DNA of 34,256 nucleotides, taken from Alkalihalobacillus bogoriensis ATCC BAA-922 (GTDB lineage Bacteria; Bacillota; Bacilli; Bacillales; Bacillaceae_F). The stretch is taken from the NCBI RefSeq assembly GCF_000621445.1, contig NZ_KK211283.1, positions 1 through 34,256 of the forward strand. The letters are read 5' to 3'. This document shows, piece after piece, positions 3,518 to 34,256 of this stretch. The notes below the pieces were generated by a model. The model was not told the DNA's origin and made no database searches. It worked only from the letters and a program-made list of their open reading frames with translations. Every line of letters starts with the position of its first letter. Position 1 is the first letter of the stretch. A program made the position numbers and the translations under genes.

Positions 3518-3967
3518 ATGACATTTAAAAAAGGGTGTCTTATTTCTCTAGGTATTGCTTTCATCTTGTTTTTAGCTCTTATAGGATTCATTTCAAAATT
3601 GGTAAATGAATCCTATAACAGTAACGAATTTCTACTTGTGAGTCAGTCTCCAAATAAAATCAATACCATCGAAATAGAAGAAGTGACATTTTTTCATTCG
3701 ATGCGTGGACCGAATATAGTAGAAATTAGATATGAAAATCATATTATGGAACATGAAGTGTACCCCGATGCTCGTTACTTAAATTCGTCAAATTTTCGTA
3801 TAGAGTGGGAAAATGATACAGAGGCTACCATTTTTGTGATGGGTGATGAACAAAGGACAGAAGAAATTCAATTTAATGCAGATAACGGATATCCATTTGA
3901 ACTGACAGTGAGCAAATATGGGGAATCTGAATTTTGGGATGACATAGAGATAGAATTTTCAGAGTAA
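3518..3967 (+). CDS. Membrane-anchored protein of unknown function, copy 1
   Basis: This 149-aa protein has one N-terminal membrane segment (about residues 6-28) and a soluble extracytoplasmic domain. The pattern SQSPNKINTIEI, then RGPN, then IEWENDTEATIF resembles small Bacillus proteins of the DUF5412 kind; this is a loose pattern match, not a firm assignment. By my count it differs at only 13 of 149 residues from the product of 9433-9882, and the first 61 residues are identical. A third, diverged and broken copy lies at 4290-4747. The start ATG follows a purine-rich AAGGGGGGG. Confidence 0.7.
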   Translation: MTFKKGCLISLGIAFILFLALIGFISKLVNESYNSNEFLLVSQSPNKINTIEIEEVTFFHSMRGPNIVEIRYENHIMEHEVYPDARYLNSSNFRIEWENDTEATIFVMGDEQRTEEIQFNADNGYPFELTVSKYGESEFWDDIEIEFSE

Positions 3968-28883: not shown

Positions 28884-29068
28884 TTACGGACATAGGTTCC
28901 GCTATTCTTAGAAAAAATCAAGTTTATGAAAAGCGAACGGACATCTGTTCTGTTATATTAGAAAAACTGGGAGCTTTTCATGTTCGTTTGGCCAAATAGC
29001 GGAACGTATGTCCGTTAAAAATGAAAAAGGCTCATTTTTGTTAAAATAGCGGAATATATGTCCGAACG
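28884..29068. repeat. 186-bp dispersed element, four units (F-F-R-R), copy B
   Basis: Units lie at 28884-28908 and 28935-28959 in the forward direction and at 28995-29018 and 29045-29068 in reverse. Spacings of 51, 60 and 50 are almost identical to copy A at 15635-15820. The outer and inner unit pairs could each form long-range stems. It sits between a terminator and the ars operon. Confidence 0.85.
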
Positions 29069-29121
29069 AGAACTCGCTGTATGATGAATGGCTTGGTCGC
29101 ATGGTAAGAACTAGCATTGAA

Positions 29122-29144
29122 GCTTTGAAAGCTTATTCTAGAAA
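29122..29144 (+). repeat. Left copy of a 23-bp repeat flanking the ars operon
   Basis: GCTTTGAAAGCT, then T, then ATTCTAGAAA at 29122-29144 matches 33964-33986 with a single difference (T versus A) in the same orientation. The two copies bracket the whole ars operon. Confidence 0.65.
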
Positions 29145-29176
29145 GGTTAAGAGTTTGTAAAGAAGATAATATACTA

Positions 29177-29205
29177 TTGCGTATATAAGTATATGCTTAT
29201 ATACT
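29177..29205 (+). promoter_or_regulatory. ars promoter with ArsR operator between -35 and -10
   Basis: TTGCGT (29177-29182), a 17-bp spacer and TATACT (29200-29205) form the promoter. The palindrome GTATATAAG/CTTATATAC (29181-29189 and 29196-29204, 6-nt centre) fills the spacer. ArsR bound there would block RNA polymerase until arsenite or antimonite is bound. Confidence 0.8.
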
Positions 29206-29233
29206 ATTTTATGAAAGAGAAAGGAGAATCAAT

Positions 29234-29569
29234 ATGACGGTTCAAATTGAGACAGCAACGAAGGTCTTAAAGCTTCTAGGCGATAAAACACGGCTGACAA
29301 TGATGTCGCTTTTAATGGAAGATGAATGCTGTGTGTGTGAATTTGTTTCTCTTTTTGATATGAGTCAACCTTCTGTAAGCCAACACCTTCGAAAACTTAG
29401 AGATATAGGGTTAGTACTTGAGGAACGGCGTGGTCAATGGATTTTTTATCGGGCAAATGCAAATCATGAAGCATATGAGCTGATGGTTTCATTATTGAAA
29501 CATCTTCCTAGTCAAAAAGAAAAATTACATGACCTTGAACAGAAGGGGTTGCGGGTTTGTTGTGAATAA
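29234..29569 (+). CDS. arsR: Arsenite-responsive repressor ArsR
   Basis: This 111-aa ArsR/SmtB-family winged-helix repressor carries the thiolate As(III)-binding motif ECCVCE (Cys32, Cys33, Cys35) at the start of the recognition region. The recognition helix follows (MSQPSVSQHLRKLRDIGLV), then the wing (EERRGQWIFYRAN). Trivalent arsenic binding to the cysteines releases DNA. The start ATG follows GAAAGGAG. A palindrome inside its promoter is the operator. It is the first gene of the arsR-B-C-D-A-hesB operon. Confidence 0.95.
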   Translation: MTVQIETATKVLKLLGDKTRLTMMSLLMEDECCVCEFVSLFDMSQPSVSQHLRKLRDIGLVLEERRGQWIFYRANANHEAYELMVSLLKHLPSQKEKLHDLEQKGLRVCCE

Positions 29570-29595
29570 TTAGGTAAAAGAGGAGAGGAGTTACT

Positions 29596-30906
29596 ATGAC
29601 TTCTGTAGTTTTAGCGTCGGCCATCTTCCTGCTTACATTAGTGCTCGTGATTTGGCAGCCGAAAGGTTTATCAATAGGTTGGTCTGCCACGATTGGAGCA
29701 GTACTTGCTTTACTTGTTGGTGTTGTCGATTTTGGAGACGTTCTAACCGTAACGGGGATTGTGTGGAATGCAACATTAACCTTTGTGGCGATCATTATTA
29801 TTTCACTAATCTTAGATGAAATTGGATTTTTTGAATGGTCCGCCTTACATATGGCACGGTTTGCAAATGGAAATGGAATAAAGATGTTTATTTATGTTTC
29901 TTTATTAGGAGCGGTTGTAGCAGCATTATTTGCAAATGATGGGGCCGCCCTCATTTTAACCCCGATTGTATTAGCGATGGTCCGTGCTTTGCGATTTAAA
30001 GATGCGATGATTCTTCCGTTTATTATGGCAAGTGGTTTTATCGCGGATACGACGTCATTGCCTTTGATTGTTAGTAATTTAGTAAACATCGTGTCGGCCG
30101 ACTTTTTTGGAATTGGATTTGTCGAGTATGCGACAAGAATGATTGTTCCGAACTTCTTTGCACTAGGTGCAAGTATTCTTGTCTTGTATGTTTACTTTAG
30201 AAAAGACATTCCGAAGCAATATGATATGGATCAATTAAAGAAACCTGAAGAAGCGATTAAAGATAAACAGTTATTTTCATTATCATGGTGGATTTTAGCT
30301 GTATTATTAATTGGGTATTTTGTCAGTGAATTTATTGAAATTCCAGTATCGTTTGTCGCTATGCCAGTGGCCTTTGTGTTTTATTTTATTTTTAGAATGA
30401 TTAGTGCGAAAAATGAACAATTAAGCTCCCCTGGAATTATAAAAGGAGCGCCTTGGGCGATTGTTGTCTTTTCAATTGGAATGTATGTTGTTGTCTATAG
30501 CTTACGAAATGTAGGTTTAACCGATATGTTAGCGATTGTGATTGAACAGGCGGCAGAACAAGGATTATTTGTTGGAACGATTTCAATGGGGTTTATTGCT
30601 GCGATATTGTCTTCGGTTATGAATAACATGCCAACAGTAATGATTAATGCCCTTGCAATAGCAGATACTTCCACAACAGGAGCAATGAGAGAAGCATTAA
30701 TTTATGCCAATATTATTGGTTCTGATTTAGGGCCAAAAATAACACCGATAGGATCGTTAGCTACATTATTATGGCTTCATGTGTTAGCGAAAAAAGGTGT
30801 AAAAATCACGTGGGGTTATTATTTTAAAGTTGGAATTATATTAACGTTACCAACATTGTTTATCACATTAGTTGGTTTGTATTTATGGCTATTACTCATA
30901 CTTTAA
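29596..30906 (+). CDS. arsB: Arsenite efflux permease ArsB
   Basis: This 436-aa membrane protein with about twelve helices belongs to the ArsB/NhaD family of As(III)/Sb(III) exporters. Typical blocks are [57 protein letters not shown] and [13 protein letters not shown] near the C-terminal half-domain. It can act as a secondary antiporter or, with ArsA, as an ATP-driven pump. The ArsA gene lies downstream in the same operon. It lies 26 bp after arsR and 18 bp before arsC. Confidence 0.95.
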
Positions 30907-30924
30907 ATGAAAAGGGGAATTATG

Positions 30925-31344
30925 ATGTCAAAACCAATTATTTATTTTTTATGTACAGGGAATTCATGCAGAAGCCAAATGGCAGAAGGATGGGGGAAAT
31001 ACTTTTTAAGCGAGAAGTATGATGTCTATTCGGCAGGGATTGAAGCACATGGTGTCAATCCGAATGCAGTAAAAGCGATGGCAGAAGCGGGAGTAGATAT
31101 TTCAGCGCAAACATCTGATACGATAAACCCTGAAATTTTACAAAAAGCAGACCTTGTTGTTACTTTATGTGGTCATGCTAATGATGTATGTCCTGCAACA
31201 CCACCGAATAAAGACAGAGTTCATTGGGGATTTGATGACCCGGCTAAAGCAGAAGGAACAGATGAAGAAAAATGGGCATTTTTCCAGCGAGTACGTGATG
31301 AAATTCGCGATAGAATAAAAGAGTTTGCTGAAACAGGAAAATAA
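30925..31344 (+). CDS. arsC: Arsenate reductase ArsC (thioredoxin-coupled)
   Basis: This 139-aa protein belongs to the low-molecular-weight phosphatase-like ArsC family (S. aureus pI258/B. subtilis type). The P-loop [14 protein letters not shown] contains the nucleophile Cys10, and the disulfide relay Cys82 and Cys89 is in [11 protein letters not shown]. It reduces As(V) to As(III) with thioredoxin as reductant. ATG 30925 is preferred (6 nt after AAGGGGA) over ATG 30922 and ATG 30907. A strong hairpin follows before arsD. Confidence 0.95.
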
Positions 31345-31350
31345 AAAGTA

Positions 31351-31378
31351 AGGGGATGTTTCCTTTGAAACATCCCTT
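31351..31378 (+). promoter_or_regulatory. Intercistronic hairpin between arsC and arsD
   Basis: AGGGGATGTTTC and GAAACATCCCTT (31351-31362 and 31367-31378) form a 12-bp stem with one G-U pair and a CTTT loop. There is no T tract, so it looks like an mRNA processing or stability element separating arsRBC from arsDA rather than a terminator. Confidence 0.6.
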
Positions 31379-31409
31379 CCATGTATAGCGCAAAAAAGGA
31401 GGAATACGA

Positions 31410-31766
31410 ATGAAAATAGAAATATTTGATCCGGCAATGTGTTGTGATACAGGTGTGTGCGGACCGAACGTAGACCCAGAGTTAACAAGAGTAGCGACAG
31501 CGATTTATATGCTTCAACAGCAGGGCATTTCCATTGTTCGATATAACTTAACTTCTGAACCACAAGCGTATGTGGATCAGAAAGAGGTCACTCAATTATT
31601 GGAGGAGAAAGGAACAGATAGTCTTCCTATTGTGATTGTAAATGACAAAGTTGAAAAAATAGGTGAATATCCAACAAATGAAGAACTTGCTAAGTGGACA
31701 GGACTGGATATAAGTCTTTTTACAAAAAAAGAGAAAAGCTTAGGAAAAGAAATTAAACTGTTATAA
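31410..31766 (+). CDS. arsD: Arsenic metallochaperone ArsD
   Basis: This 118-aa protein has the chaperone motif PAMCCDTGVCGP with Cys11, Cys12 and Cys17, equivalent to Cys12/13/18 of plasmid R773 ArsD. A thioredoxin-like fold follows (SLPIVIVNDKVEKIGEYPTN). It hands As(III) to ArsA and raises its ATPase activity. The additional C-terminal vicinal cysteine pairs of R773 ArsD are absent, as in many short ArsD proteins. It lies 13 bp before arsA. Confidence 0.95.
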   Translation: MKIEIFDPAMCCDTGVCGPNVDPELTRVATAIYMLQQQGISIVRYNLTSEPQAYVDQKEVTQLLEEKGTDSLPIVIVNDKVEKIGEYPTNEELAKWTGLDISLFTKKEKSLGKEIKLL

Positions 31767-31779
31767 AAGGGTGGATATT

Positions 31780-33540
31780 ATGAGGCAGCGATTTCTTCCA
31801 GCAGAGATGGAAATGACCCGTTATTTGTTTTTTACGGGGAAAGGTGGCGTTGGAAAAACATCAACAGCATGTGCCACCGCGCTACAGTTAGCTGAGGTAG
31901 GGAAAAAAGTGTTAATTGTAAGCACAGACCCGGCCTCGAATTTACAAGATGTGTTCCGTATAAACATTGACCGTCAAACCATAGCTATCCCTGATGTAAA
32001 CGGCTTATTTGCGATAAACATTAATCCAGAACAAGTCGCAGCGCAGTACCGAGAAAGTGTAATAGGACCATATCGAGAAAAGCTTCCAGCACCAGTTATT
32101 ATGCAAATGGAAGAGCAATTATCAGGAGCATGTACAGTTGAAATTGCAGCATTTAATGAATTTGCTGACGTTTTAACGAATGAAGAAATCAGAAATCAAT
32201 ACGACCATATTATATTTGATACGGCACCAACTGGCCACACGTTAAGATTATTACAGTTACCAACAGCATGGTCACAGTTTTTAGAAGAATCCACACATGG
32301 CGCATCATGTCTAGGTCCGCTTTCTGGTTTAGCTGAAAAACAACACCTGTACAATGAAGCTGTTCATGCGTTATCGGATAAAGAAAAAACAACCTTGTTA
32401 TTAGTAACGAGACCGGATAAATCCGCGATTCAAGAAGCGAACCGGGCATCAGCTGAACTCTTTGACATTGGCTTACAAAATCAATGGCTCATTATTAATG
32501 GCAAGATGCAGCGATATGAAAAATTTGATGAAATCGCAAAGGCGTTTTACAACCGCCAGGAACAGGCACTTGAAACATTGACAGGTCGTTTACTAAAACT
32601 TCCGACATTTGAGATTCCGTTTGTGTCTTATGAAATAACAGGGACAGAGGCATTACGAGTATTTTTTAAAGAAAGTGAAAGGCTGGAAACGGAAGAAGAA
32701 ACAAACAAAACAACGCTTCCTCCATTATCGGAGCTGCTACATACACTGGGGAAAAAGAAAAGTGGTGTCGTCATGACGATGGGAAAGGGCGGCGTTGGGA
32801 AAACTACAATTGCATCAGCGATAGCGATTGGATTAGCTGAGCAAGGCCATCAAGTACACTTAACGACAACCGATCCGGCTGCTCACTTATCTCACGTGTT
32901 TGGGAACGAAATCACGAAAAAAAATCTTCAAATGAGTGTGATTAATCCTGATATTGAAGTAGAAAAATATAAAAAAGATATTTTATCAAAGGCAAAAGAT
33001 ATGCTTGATGAAAATGGCTTAGCTTATTTAAAGGAAGACCTACAATCACCATGTACGGAAGAAATTGCTGTATTTCAAGCATTTGCCAAAGTTGTCGACG
33101 AAGCGGAAAATCAGTTTGTTGTTATAGATACGGCGCCAACGGGTCACACATTACTATTATTAGACGCAGCTCAGTCTTACCAAAAGGAAGTAACAAGAAC
33201 AACAGGTGAAGTTCCAAAGGAAGTTGAACGCTTATTGCCAAGACTACGTAATAACCGAGAAACAGATGTTATCATTGTAACTTTACCAGAAGCAACACCG
33301 TATTATGAAGCAAAGCGGTTGGCTGATGATTTAAAACGAGCTGAAATCAGTCCAACATGGACAGTAATTAATCAAAGCTTTGCGATGACAACGACGACAG
33401 ACCCGATTTTAAAACAACGAGCAACAGCAGAATGGAAATGGATAGAGAAAATACAAACATTAACAAGTCAAACCGTTATCACACCTTGGCAAATTCATGA
33501 TACGATTGGATATAAGCATGTAAAAGATTTACTAACATAG
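31780..33540 (+). CDS. arsA: Arsenite-stimulated pump ATPase ArsA
   Basis: This 586-aa protein is a tandem of two ATPase halves. P-loops are GKGGVGKTS (residues 20-28) and GKGGVGKTT (335-343), and each half has the signature DTAPTGHT. The three metal-site cysteines are Cys118 (SGAC), Cys177 (ASCLGP) and Cys425 (SPCTEE), matching Cys113, Cys172 and Cys422 of E. coli ArsA. It couples ATP hydrolysis to ArsB. The start is ATG 31780 behind GGGTGG; GTG 31771 overlaps that site. Its stop codon forms part of the AGGAGG site of the next gene. Confidence 0.95.
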   Translation: MRQRFLPAEMEMTRYLFFTGKGGVGKTSTACATALQLAEVGKKVLIVSTDPASNLQDVFRINIDRQTIAIPDVNGLFAININPEQVAAQYRESVIGPYREKLPAPVIMQMEEQLSGACTVEIAAFNEFADVLTNEEIRNQYDHIIFDTAPTGHTLRLLQLPTAWSQFLEESTHGASCLGPLSGLAEKQHLYNEAVHALSDKEKTTLLLVTRPDKSAIQEANRASAELFDIGLQNQWLIINGKMQRYEKFDEIAKAFYNRQEQALETLTGRLLKLPTFEIPFVSYEITGTEALRVFFKESERLETEEETNKTTLPPLSELLHTLGKKKSGVVMTMGKGGVGKTTIASAIAIGLAEQGHQVHLTTTDPAAHLSHVFGNEITKKNLQMSVINPDIEVEKYKKDILSKAKDMLDENGLAYLKEDLQSPCTEEIAVFQAFAKVVDEAENQFVVIDTAPTGHTLLLLDAAQSYQKEVTRTTGEVPKEVERLLPRLRNNRETDVIIVTLPEATPYYEAKRLADDLKRAEISPTWTVINQSFAMTTTTDPILKQRATAEWKWIEKIQTLTSQTVITPWQIHDTIGYKHVKDLLT

Positions 33541-33551
33541 GAGGTACAGAG

Positions 33552-33833
33552 ATGGAGATTACAGCAACAGCAAAAGAAACATTACTTGAAATTATGGAAG
33601 AAAAACAAGCAAGCGCAGTTCGCTTTTATTTTGCGGGCATGGGCTGAGGGAGCCCTAAGATTGGACTGGCTCTGGATGAGCCAGAAGAAGATGATATTGT
33701 AGAAGAGATTTCAGGGATTACGGTTGCCATTGATAAGATGATTGAACACGAGGCAAAAACAATAACTCTAGATGTACAAGAACATAACGGACAGCGAGGA
33801 TTTGTGCTATTAGGGACAAATGATTGTTGTTAA
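33552..33833 (+). CDS. HesB/IscA-like selenoprotein (in-frame UGA as selenocysteine)
   Basis: ATG 33552 lies 6 nt after AGGAGGT, which overlaps the arsA stop. The frame runs 31 codons to TGA at 33645-33647 and continues open, with clear homology, to TAA at 33831. If TGA is read through, the product is 93 aa: FYFAGMG, then Sec32, then GSPKIGLALDEPEEDD, then a HesB-type beta domain ending TNDCC. Sec32 sits where A-type Fe-S carriers (IscA/HesB) have their first conserved Cys, and Cys92-Cys93 correspond to the C-terminal Cys pair. HesB-like selenoproteins are an established family with Cys and Sec members. A bacterial SECIS-type hairpin follows the TGA. As the terminal gene of an ars operon it may bind Fe-S or trivalent arsenic/selenium species (inference). 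The alternative is a point-mutated Cys gene. Confidence 0.85.
33645..33684 (+). promoter_or_regulatory. Bacterial SECIS element
   Basis: After the TGA (33645-33647), CTGGCTC (33666-33672) and GAGCCAG (33678-33684) form a perfect 7-bp stem with the loop TGGAT. The loop begins 25 nt after the UGA, within the roughly 16-37 nt described for bacterial SECIS. It has G at the second loop position, as SelB recognition requires. The stem is encoded by CTG GCT CTG GAT GAG CCA, where CTG is unusual beside the TTA-rich neighbours, hinting at selection on RNA structure. Confidence 0.82.
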
Positions 33834-33900
33834 TAAATGAAAGAGTGTGGTTGAGTAAGAGGCGTGGAAAGGCTCCCCCGATAACTACATTTCACCACGG

Positions 33901-33930
33901 GAACTATCGAAACTCGATAGTTCTTTTTTT
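33901..33930 (+). terminator. Terminator of the ars operon
   Basis: GAACTATCGA (33901-33910) and TCGATAGTTC (33914-33923) form a perfect 10-bp stem with a 3-nt loop followed by T7. It lies after the HesB-like gene and so places that gene inside the ars transcript. Confidence 0.9.
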
Positions 33931-34256
33931 GAAAGATAAGAAAAAAATTGGTGTAGCTGTGATGCTTTGAAAGCTAATTCTAGAAAAGCGAAGGCTGCGC
34001 ACCTGCGCGTTTCACCCAAGAAGAGCACTTGGGGTTCACTTTAAAAAGCGGGCAGGGCTCCGGATTTAGCTTGAAAGAAAAGACGCTCTCACGTTTTTCT
34101 TAAGCTTTTTATATTTATTATGAAACGAACACGTTAAACTTCGTTAAATGCAAATTTAGCCGTTGTTATTAATACAGTGGTGAGGGACAAAATAAGGACA
34201 AAACGAGGAGAAAATGAAGCGAAAGTGTCCTTCATAAAGGCGATGAAGGACAAAAC
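33931..34256. other. Intergenic region after the ars operon
   Basis: No gene is supportable here. The region contains the right copy of the ars-flanking repeat (33964-33986) and a hairpin-rich GC patch at about 33988-34060. At its end is a repetitive patch with AGGGACAAAA (34183), AAGGACAAAA (34194) and an inverted repeat GTCCTTCAT/ATGAAGGAC (34227-34235 and 34243-34251, 7-nt loop). The last looks like part of another dispersed repeat running out of the window. Confidence 0.5.
33964..33986 (+). repeat. Right copy of a 23-bp repeat flanking the ars operon
   Basis: GCTTTGAAAGCT, then A, then ATTCTAGAAA lies 34 bp after the ars terminator. It matches 29122-29144 with one difference in the same orientation. 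Confidence 0.65.

Follow-up and report, generated by a model that had tools for sequence, protein, structure and literature searches.

The window analyzed here, a stretch of 34,256 nucleotides from Alkalihalobacillus bogoriensis ATCC BAA-922 (contig NZ_KK211283.1, positions 1 to 34,256), carries a row of ars genes in the order arsR-arsB-arsC-arsD-arsA-hesB, with the hesB-like gene last and in the same direction as the others (Table 1). The hesB frame runs from an ATG through 31 sense codons to an in-frame TGA, and then through 61 further sense codons to a TAA at 33831-33833; arsA in front of it ends with a TAG (33538-33540). The sequence-only reading of this DNA had described the same succession of AGGAGG, ATG, TGA and TAA, and both the coordinates and the 93-aa product agree with it; the ars context was missing from that reading. 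Terminator-like sites, one of which follows hesB, number 11 in the region, compared with 4.1 in shuffled sequences. Between arsC and arsD there is also a 10-bp hairpin (31353-31376); in Bacillus sp. CDB3, according to the accessible text of the report, a hairpin between arsC and arsD lowers expression of the full operon (PMC4562236).

Table 1. Features of the ars-hesB region (positions in the window).
Feature	Coordinates	Strand	Remarks
arsR-family metalloregulator	29234..29569	+	first gene of the row
arsB, arsenite efflux pump	29596..30906	+	TIGR00935, 770.8 bits
arsC, thioredoxin-type arsenate reductase	30907..31344	+	TIGR02691, 226.7 bits; start codon approximate
arsD, arsenite metallochaperone	31410..31766	+	NF033727, 138 bits
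arsA, arsenical pump-driving ATPase	31771..33540	+	TIGR04291, 835.2 bits; 11 bp before hesB
AGGAGG ribosome-binding site	33539..33544	+	read directly; overlaps the arsA stop, 7 nt before the ATG
hesB-like gene, probable selenoprotein	33552..33833	+	93 aa, predicted Sec at residue 32, C-terminal Cys-Cys; TGA-bearing homologs at the same codon
In-frame TGA, putative Sec codon 32	33645..33647	+	read in the sequence; TGA in 65 of 92 distinct relatives' genes
Bacterial SECIS-like hairpin	33666..33684	+	7-bp stem CUGGCUC/GAGCCAG, loop UGGAU; covariation, synonymous-codon control
Terminator-like hairpin (33899-33925) and T run	33899..33930	+	consensus match; likely operon end

The matches of the read-through product to NF038090 (61.2 bits, 9.6e-17) and TIGR01911 (47.4 bits, 2.2e-12) both span the TGA, so that the same HesB-like protein continues past this codon, as had been claimed. 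The proposed assignment to the HesB selenoprotein models holds in part: the matches extend across the TGA, but both scores lie under the curated cut-offs (85 and 66.35 bits, respectively). The other 44 members of protein alignment A2, which holds 45 of the 92 distinct genes compared below, reach best E-values of 5.1e-17 with TIGR01911 and 3.8e-17 with NF038090. The score against PF01521 is 20.6 bits (cut-off 26.3), and the window hesB gene is absent from the matches of a genome-wide PF01521 search. That search yielded four proteins, three of them TGA-less and over the cut-off; the fourth is described below. The window gene very probably encodes a small selenoprotein of iron-sulfur/metal-binding type, and a standard gene finder would truncate it.

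An AlphaFold model of the product, with Cys replacing Sec, has a pLDDT of 88.0 and a pTM of 0.74. Its best structural match is IscA (1r94, TM 0.78, E 7.6e-06), followed by IscA with [2Fe-2S], HI1723, DsrR, SufA, and AQ_1857; eight PDB chains in all matched at E ≤ 0.001. The 45-member sequence profile, compared with solved structures, retrieves HI1723, AQ_1857, and IscA, in agreement with the model. These predictions assign an IscA-like fold to the read-through product. IscA proteins carry a first ligand cysteine plus a C-terminal CxC. In the window protein Sec32 would occupy the first site and the C-terminus is CC, so the protein departs from the IscA ligand pattern with its CxC; for this reason we call it IscA/HesB-like, and not IscA.

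To compare homologs we used 299 related genomes, of which 163 had a match at E ≤ 0.001. Among the 150 matches listed, 83 contain one TGA and 67 contain none. The two congeners in the set, with 95% and 71% identity, both carry the TGA. From the stronger matches, and not at random, we chose loci yielding 97 genes, and 92 distinct genes remained after removal of five with identical DNA. Codon 32 is TGA in 65 of these, TGC or TGT in 23, and GAA, GAC, or GAT in four; in the alignment of all 97, every TGA occupies one and the same codon position. The sequence-only reading had placed the TGA at a conserved-cysteine codon, and indeed 23 of the 27 distinct TGA-less genes encode Cys there. Together with the profile matches across the TGA, its presence in 83 of the 150 listed homologs shows that the interrupted frame did not arise by chance.

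The distribution of selA follows that of the TGA. The 150 listed matches, which are the stronger ones, cover 128 of the 163 genomes with a match. Within them, selA exceeded the cut-off in all 71 genomes for which a TGA copy is listed, and in 7 of 57 whose listed copies are all TGA-less (absent in 50 of 57; Fisher p = 2e-28, kinship not corrected). The earlier statement that Sec and Cys are interchangeable in this family thus fits what the relatives hold, as they carry both TGA and TGC/TGT forms and the TGA tracks selA. Since 138 of the 299 related genomes have selA over the cut-off, Sec decoding appears to be common in Bacillales.

The genome itself (5.0 Mb, 51 contigs, completeness 100) encodes the complete set of Sec-decoding factors that had been named as a check: selA (574.4 bits), selB (368.3 bits), selD (404 bits), and tRNA-Sec (60.5 bits), all over their cut-offs. 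ARAGORN also reports a tRNA-SeC with anticodon tca (UCA in the RNA). All four genes lie on contig C1 between positions 3967 and 15383. In 14 control genomes the same searches exceeded the cut-offs once for selA, twice each for selB and selD, and five times for tRNA-Sec.

The region around these genes shows several further features. selD (L059:5692-6834, plus strand), next to selA, contains one in-frame TGA of its own (KAGUGCK). It adjoins an ORF of the Rdx family (SelW-like; L059:5411-5662, minus strand) with a CxxU motif, which lies between selA and selD. These two genes are candidates for two more selenoproteins of the genome. Between selD and selB there are genes for the binding protein, permease, and ATPase of a phosphonate-type ABC transporter (L059:7522-10014, minus strand), which might be tied to selenium uptake.

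A hairpin suited to direct Sec insertion is found downstream of the UGA. Its stem starts 18 nt and its UGGAU loop (33673-33677) 25 nt past the UGA, and its folding energy is −12.9 kcal/mol. Published limits for bacterial SECIS elements, as given in the available text of PMC13188914, are a loop of 3-9 nt with a G in its first two positions, a stem of 4-16 bp, a spacing of 16-37 nt, and an energy of at most −7.5 kcal/mol; the window hairpin lies within all of them, with a loop of 5 nt and a stem of 7 bp. The fold of the 65 nt around the UGA also contains a small hairpin enclosing the UGA itself; alignment A1 begins at the UGA and so leaves the 5′ arm of this hairpin outside. A search of Rfam with positions 29000-34256, at E-values up to 1, gave no match; hence the case for a SECIS element rests on covariation and the published structural constraints.

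The comparison of relatives supports the element. The best hairpin has a UGGA-type loop in 65 of the 65 distinct TGA genes (UGGAU in 61, UGGAC in one, GGA in three) and in none of the 27 others; in the TGA genes the spacing is 25-26 nt. The mean hairpin energy is −11.1 kcal/mol in the TGA genes vs. −6.8 kcal/mol in the others, and the mean z-score relative to synonymous recodings is −2.5 vs. −0.5. These are averages: synonymous recodings fold equally well in more than 5% of cases for 16 of the 65 TGA genes, four TGA-gene hairpins (L102, L121, L125, L131) fall short of −7.5 kcal/mol, and some TGA-less genes fold strongly in another way (e.g., L071, −13.7 kcal/mol).

Covariation was assessed on 63 distinct TGA segments, two of the 65 being identical to others and removed. 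Of the stem pair cells, 96.1% are paired, compared with 25-51% in slid controls. Both sides changed in 34 cells, distributed over pairs 22-40, 24-38, 25-37, and 27-35 in 13, 1, 14, and 6 rows, respectively. None of 500 shuffles, which leave kinship uncorrected, equalled the number of paired cells, the number of cells with both sides changed, or the covariation score; 14 of the 500 reached the count of four pairs with both sides changed, and 87 of them that of further pair types. The codon usage points in the same direction. Leu41 is encoded by CTG in all 65 TGA genes and in two of the 23 Cys genes. Where residue 40 is Ser, residue 44 is Ala in 14 of 15 TGA genes, but Pro in 11 of 12 Cys genes. 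This bias and this coupling indicate constraint on the RNA; the needs of the protein would not by themselves account for the hairpin.

One alternative is a broken gene or a sequencing error, with the TGA produced by nonsense mutation or miscalling in a gene that is dead or in truth encodes Cys. The TGC or TGT at codon 32 of some relatives would fit. A single TGA, however, recurs in 83 of 150 listed matches, both congeners included; moreover, selA is present in all 71 genomes with the TGA, the hairpin covaries, and all 65 distinct TGA genes encode a Cys among their last three residues. We therefore consider this explanation extremely improbable. The UGA could also be a real stop, releasing a 31-aa peptide, or a codon translated as Trp or Cys without the help of a SECIS element; we found no positive evidence for either. 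The conserved protein runs on for 61 codons after the putative stop, Trp occurs at codon 32 in none of the 27 TGA-less genes (Cys in 23, Asp or Glu in four), and the hairpin and the sel genes fit Sec decoding, all of which makes this reading very improbable as well. Sequencing error, pseudogene, and UGA as Trp are thus disfavored by recurrence, by the selA association, and by covariation.

Sec decoding at codon 32 is, on the other hand, supported by comparison. In the mechanism we propose, the UGA would be decoded as Sec by the host SelA, SelB, SelD, and tRNA-Sec, directed by the bSECIS hairpin through its loop 25 nt downstream, and Cys would replace Sec in most lineages without Sec decoding. 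On the sequence evidence, the window almost certainly contains a functional selenoprotein gene in an ars operon, a judgment that excludes its exact function.

The position in the ars operon is the best lead to that function. To see how general it is, we examined 82 neighborhoods, selected and not random: they are the 85 long ones minus three (L061, L063, L064) that have the same genes as L098, L131, and L142. Twelve loci with 1.5-kb flanks were part of the gene comparison and stand outside the 82. We called a neighborhood ars-linked if the fetched flank contains arsA, arsB, arsC, or arsD upstream of hesB in the same orientation; arsR was not counted. By this definition 40 of the 82 are ars-linked, namely 18 of 56 with Sec, 18 of 22 with Cys, and four of four with Asp or Glu. 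As the remaining 38 of the 56 Sec neighborhoods have no ars link, Sec and arsenic are separable. Other Sec hesB genes are found at other loci, for instance next to a gene resembling that of a dipeptidase or of a metal-binding lipoprotein (both named by reading). In 19 of the 82 neighborhoods, genes of one cluster directly precede hesB, following arsA in 17 and arsC in two; the one member scanned is a dual-specificity phosphatase (PF00782, 43.2 bits).

The protein tree, built on 93 columns and leaving 34 of 79 inner branches open, was used solely for the grouping of the window protein, which falls with other ars-linked forms (SH-aLRT 85-89). Two Cys forms (L070 and L071, from G030 and G182), encoded directly after arsA, group with the window gene and L067 (support 89), and neither genome is among the selA-positive ones. 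This is likely a Sec/Cys exchange in place. In four homologs encoded after arsC (L104, L108, L129, L132), position 32 is Asp or Glu and the last three residues include no Cys.

Of the 65 distinct TGA genes, 59 encode a terminal Cys-Cys and all 65 a Cys somewhere in the last three residues; for the 23 Cys genes the numbers are 16 and 21. None of the four Asp/Glu genes encodes a Cys there. The joint loss in the Asp/Glu forms suggests that position 32 and the C-terminal cysteines work together, although these forms make up one branch (support 87) and so count as one event at most. Sec32 and Cys92-Cys93 may form one soft-metal or redox site. Such a site could bind As(III) and pass it to or from ArsD and ArsA; alternatively, it could protect and rebuild Fe-S clusters under arsenite.

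The ars linkage favors an arsenic-related role, which we infer from this linkage only, while the IscA fold favors Fe-S chemistry. To direct handling of As(III) or another soft metal we give slightly less than an even chance; protection or repair of Fe-S clusters is a tentative second reading, and other thiol-redox roles take up the rest. If the selenoprotein is an Fe-S carrier, its place in the ars operon would reflect protection of Fe-S enzymes and not arsenic binding. Its IscA/SufA fold would then be explained, as would the 38 Sec neighborhoods without an ars link, but the C-terminal CC replaces the CxC of IscA, and the three other PF01521 proteins over the cut-off could do the housekeeping; we hold this carrier role to be possible, short of probable. 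Whichever role applies, a Sec hesB gene ending an ars operon, with Cys and Asp/Glu forms in the ars operons of relatives, offers a direct clue to function, and naturally occurring Sec/Cys pairs are available to probe it.

The fourth PF01521 protein of the genome (C6:26992-27267; L148:1501-1776) scores 25.1 bits, below the cut-off of 26.3, and contains a single in-frame TGA within the motif DTYEUSTM; it has no other Cys. A search of 120 relatives gave matches in 19 genomes. The best 12 of the 19 have TGA in eight cases and TGC in four, within the motif DTYE/DTFE-[U/C]-STM; the seven weaker ones, at E 1e-5 to 9e-4, lack a TGA. Each of the eight TGA members has as its best hairpin one whose UGGAU loop is 28 nt past the UGA, and all eight genomes have selA over the cut-off. 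Of the four TGC genomes, this holds for that of a congener alone (G001). Its copy (L149, G001:C1:3111373-3111648) has the loop UUGAU instead of UGGAU; here Sec was apparently exchanged for Cys recently, and the loop G was lost. In A. bogoriensis the hairpin is weak (−7.5 kcal/mol), and shuffled sequence folds at least as well as the 60 nt from the UGA (z 1.07). The protein reaches 32.4 of the 85 bits required by NF038090. We regard this second, divergent HesB-like gene as a candidate for an undescribed selenoprotein family. Short selenoprotein genes in Bacillales can evidently fall under curated cut-offs. A broader and rather unlikely reading would be that the Bacillales HesB branch is a dedicated As(III)-chelating selenoprotein, using Sec32 and the C-terminal Cys pair in the ArsD/ArsA pathway, and that the DTYEUSTM type, with its own SECIS, accompanies it in some of the same genomes, the two making up a Sec-based metalloid/Fe-S system outside the curated models.

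HesB-like selenoproteins are a known family in the available text of several reports (PMC1794560, PMC5029168, PMC9312934, PMC13188914). Table 3 of one of them counts 90 proteins in 86 bacteria (PMC5029168), the motif is given elsewhere as UxGP (PMC13188914), and a 2006 survey lists three selenoproteins of three families for Bacillales (PMC1794560). The window protein shares with the family modeled by TIGR01911 the predicted IscA-type fold, the putative Sec at the Cys of homologs, and a bSECIS-like hairpin. It differs in scoring under the TIGR01911 and NF038090 cut-offs, in its motif UGSP (many of its relatives have UGGP), and in its ars operon. In Methanococcus maripaludis a HesB-like selenoprotein was found by mutagenesis and 75Se labeling; the accessible part of the report calls its function unclear and quotes an unpublished observation that a disruption mutant still fixed nitrogen (PMC11097638). 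That protein is archaeal, unlike the window protein.

In the open-licence literature searched, no title or abstract described a Sec-containing HesB in an ars operon. A close known arrangement is the ars1 operon of Bacillus sp. CDB3, arsRYCDATorf7orf8, in which, as far as the available text of the reports goes, orf7 is HesB-like and orf8 encodes a phosphatase (PMC4562236, PMC5481582). Like the window gene, orf7 lies toward the 3′ end of an ars operon that includes arsD and arsA. A dual-specificity phosphatase gene is next to orf7, as in the 19 neighborhoods above. Compared by description, orf7 is not termed a selenoprotein in the portions available of these reports, and the window has no phosphatase gene between arsA and hesB. 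The ars gene sets of Exiguobacterium likewise contain hesB, described in the accessible text without mention of selenocysteine (PMC8779447). Published reports thus exist both for HesB-like selenoproteins and for a Bacillus ars operon with a HesB-like gene, and the gene described here is an ars-linked variant of the known selenoprotein kind.
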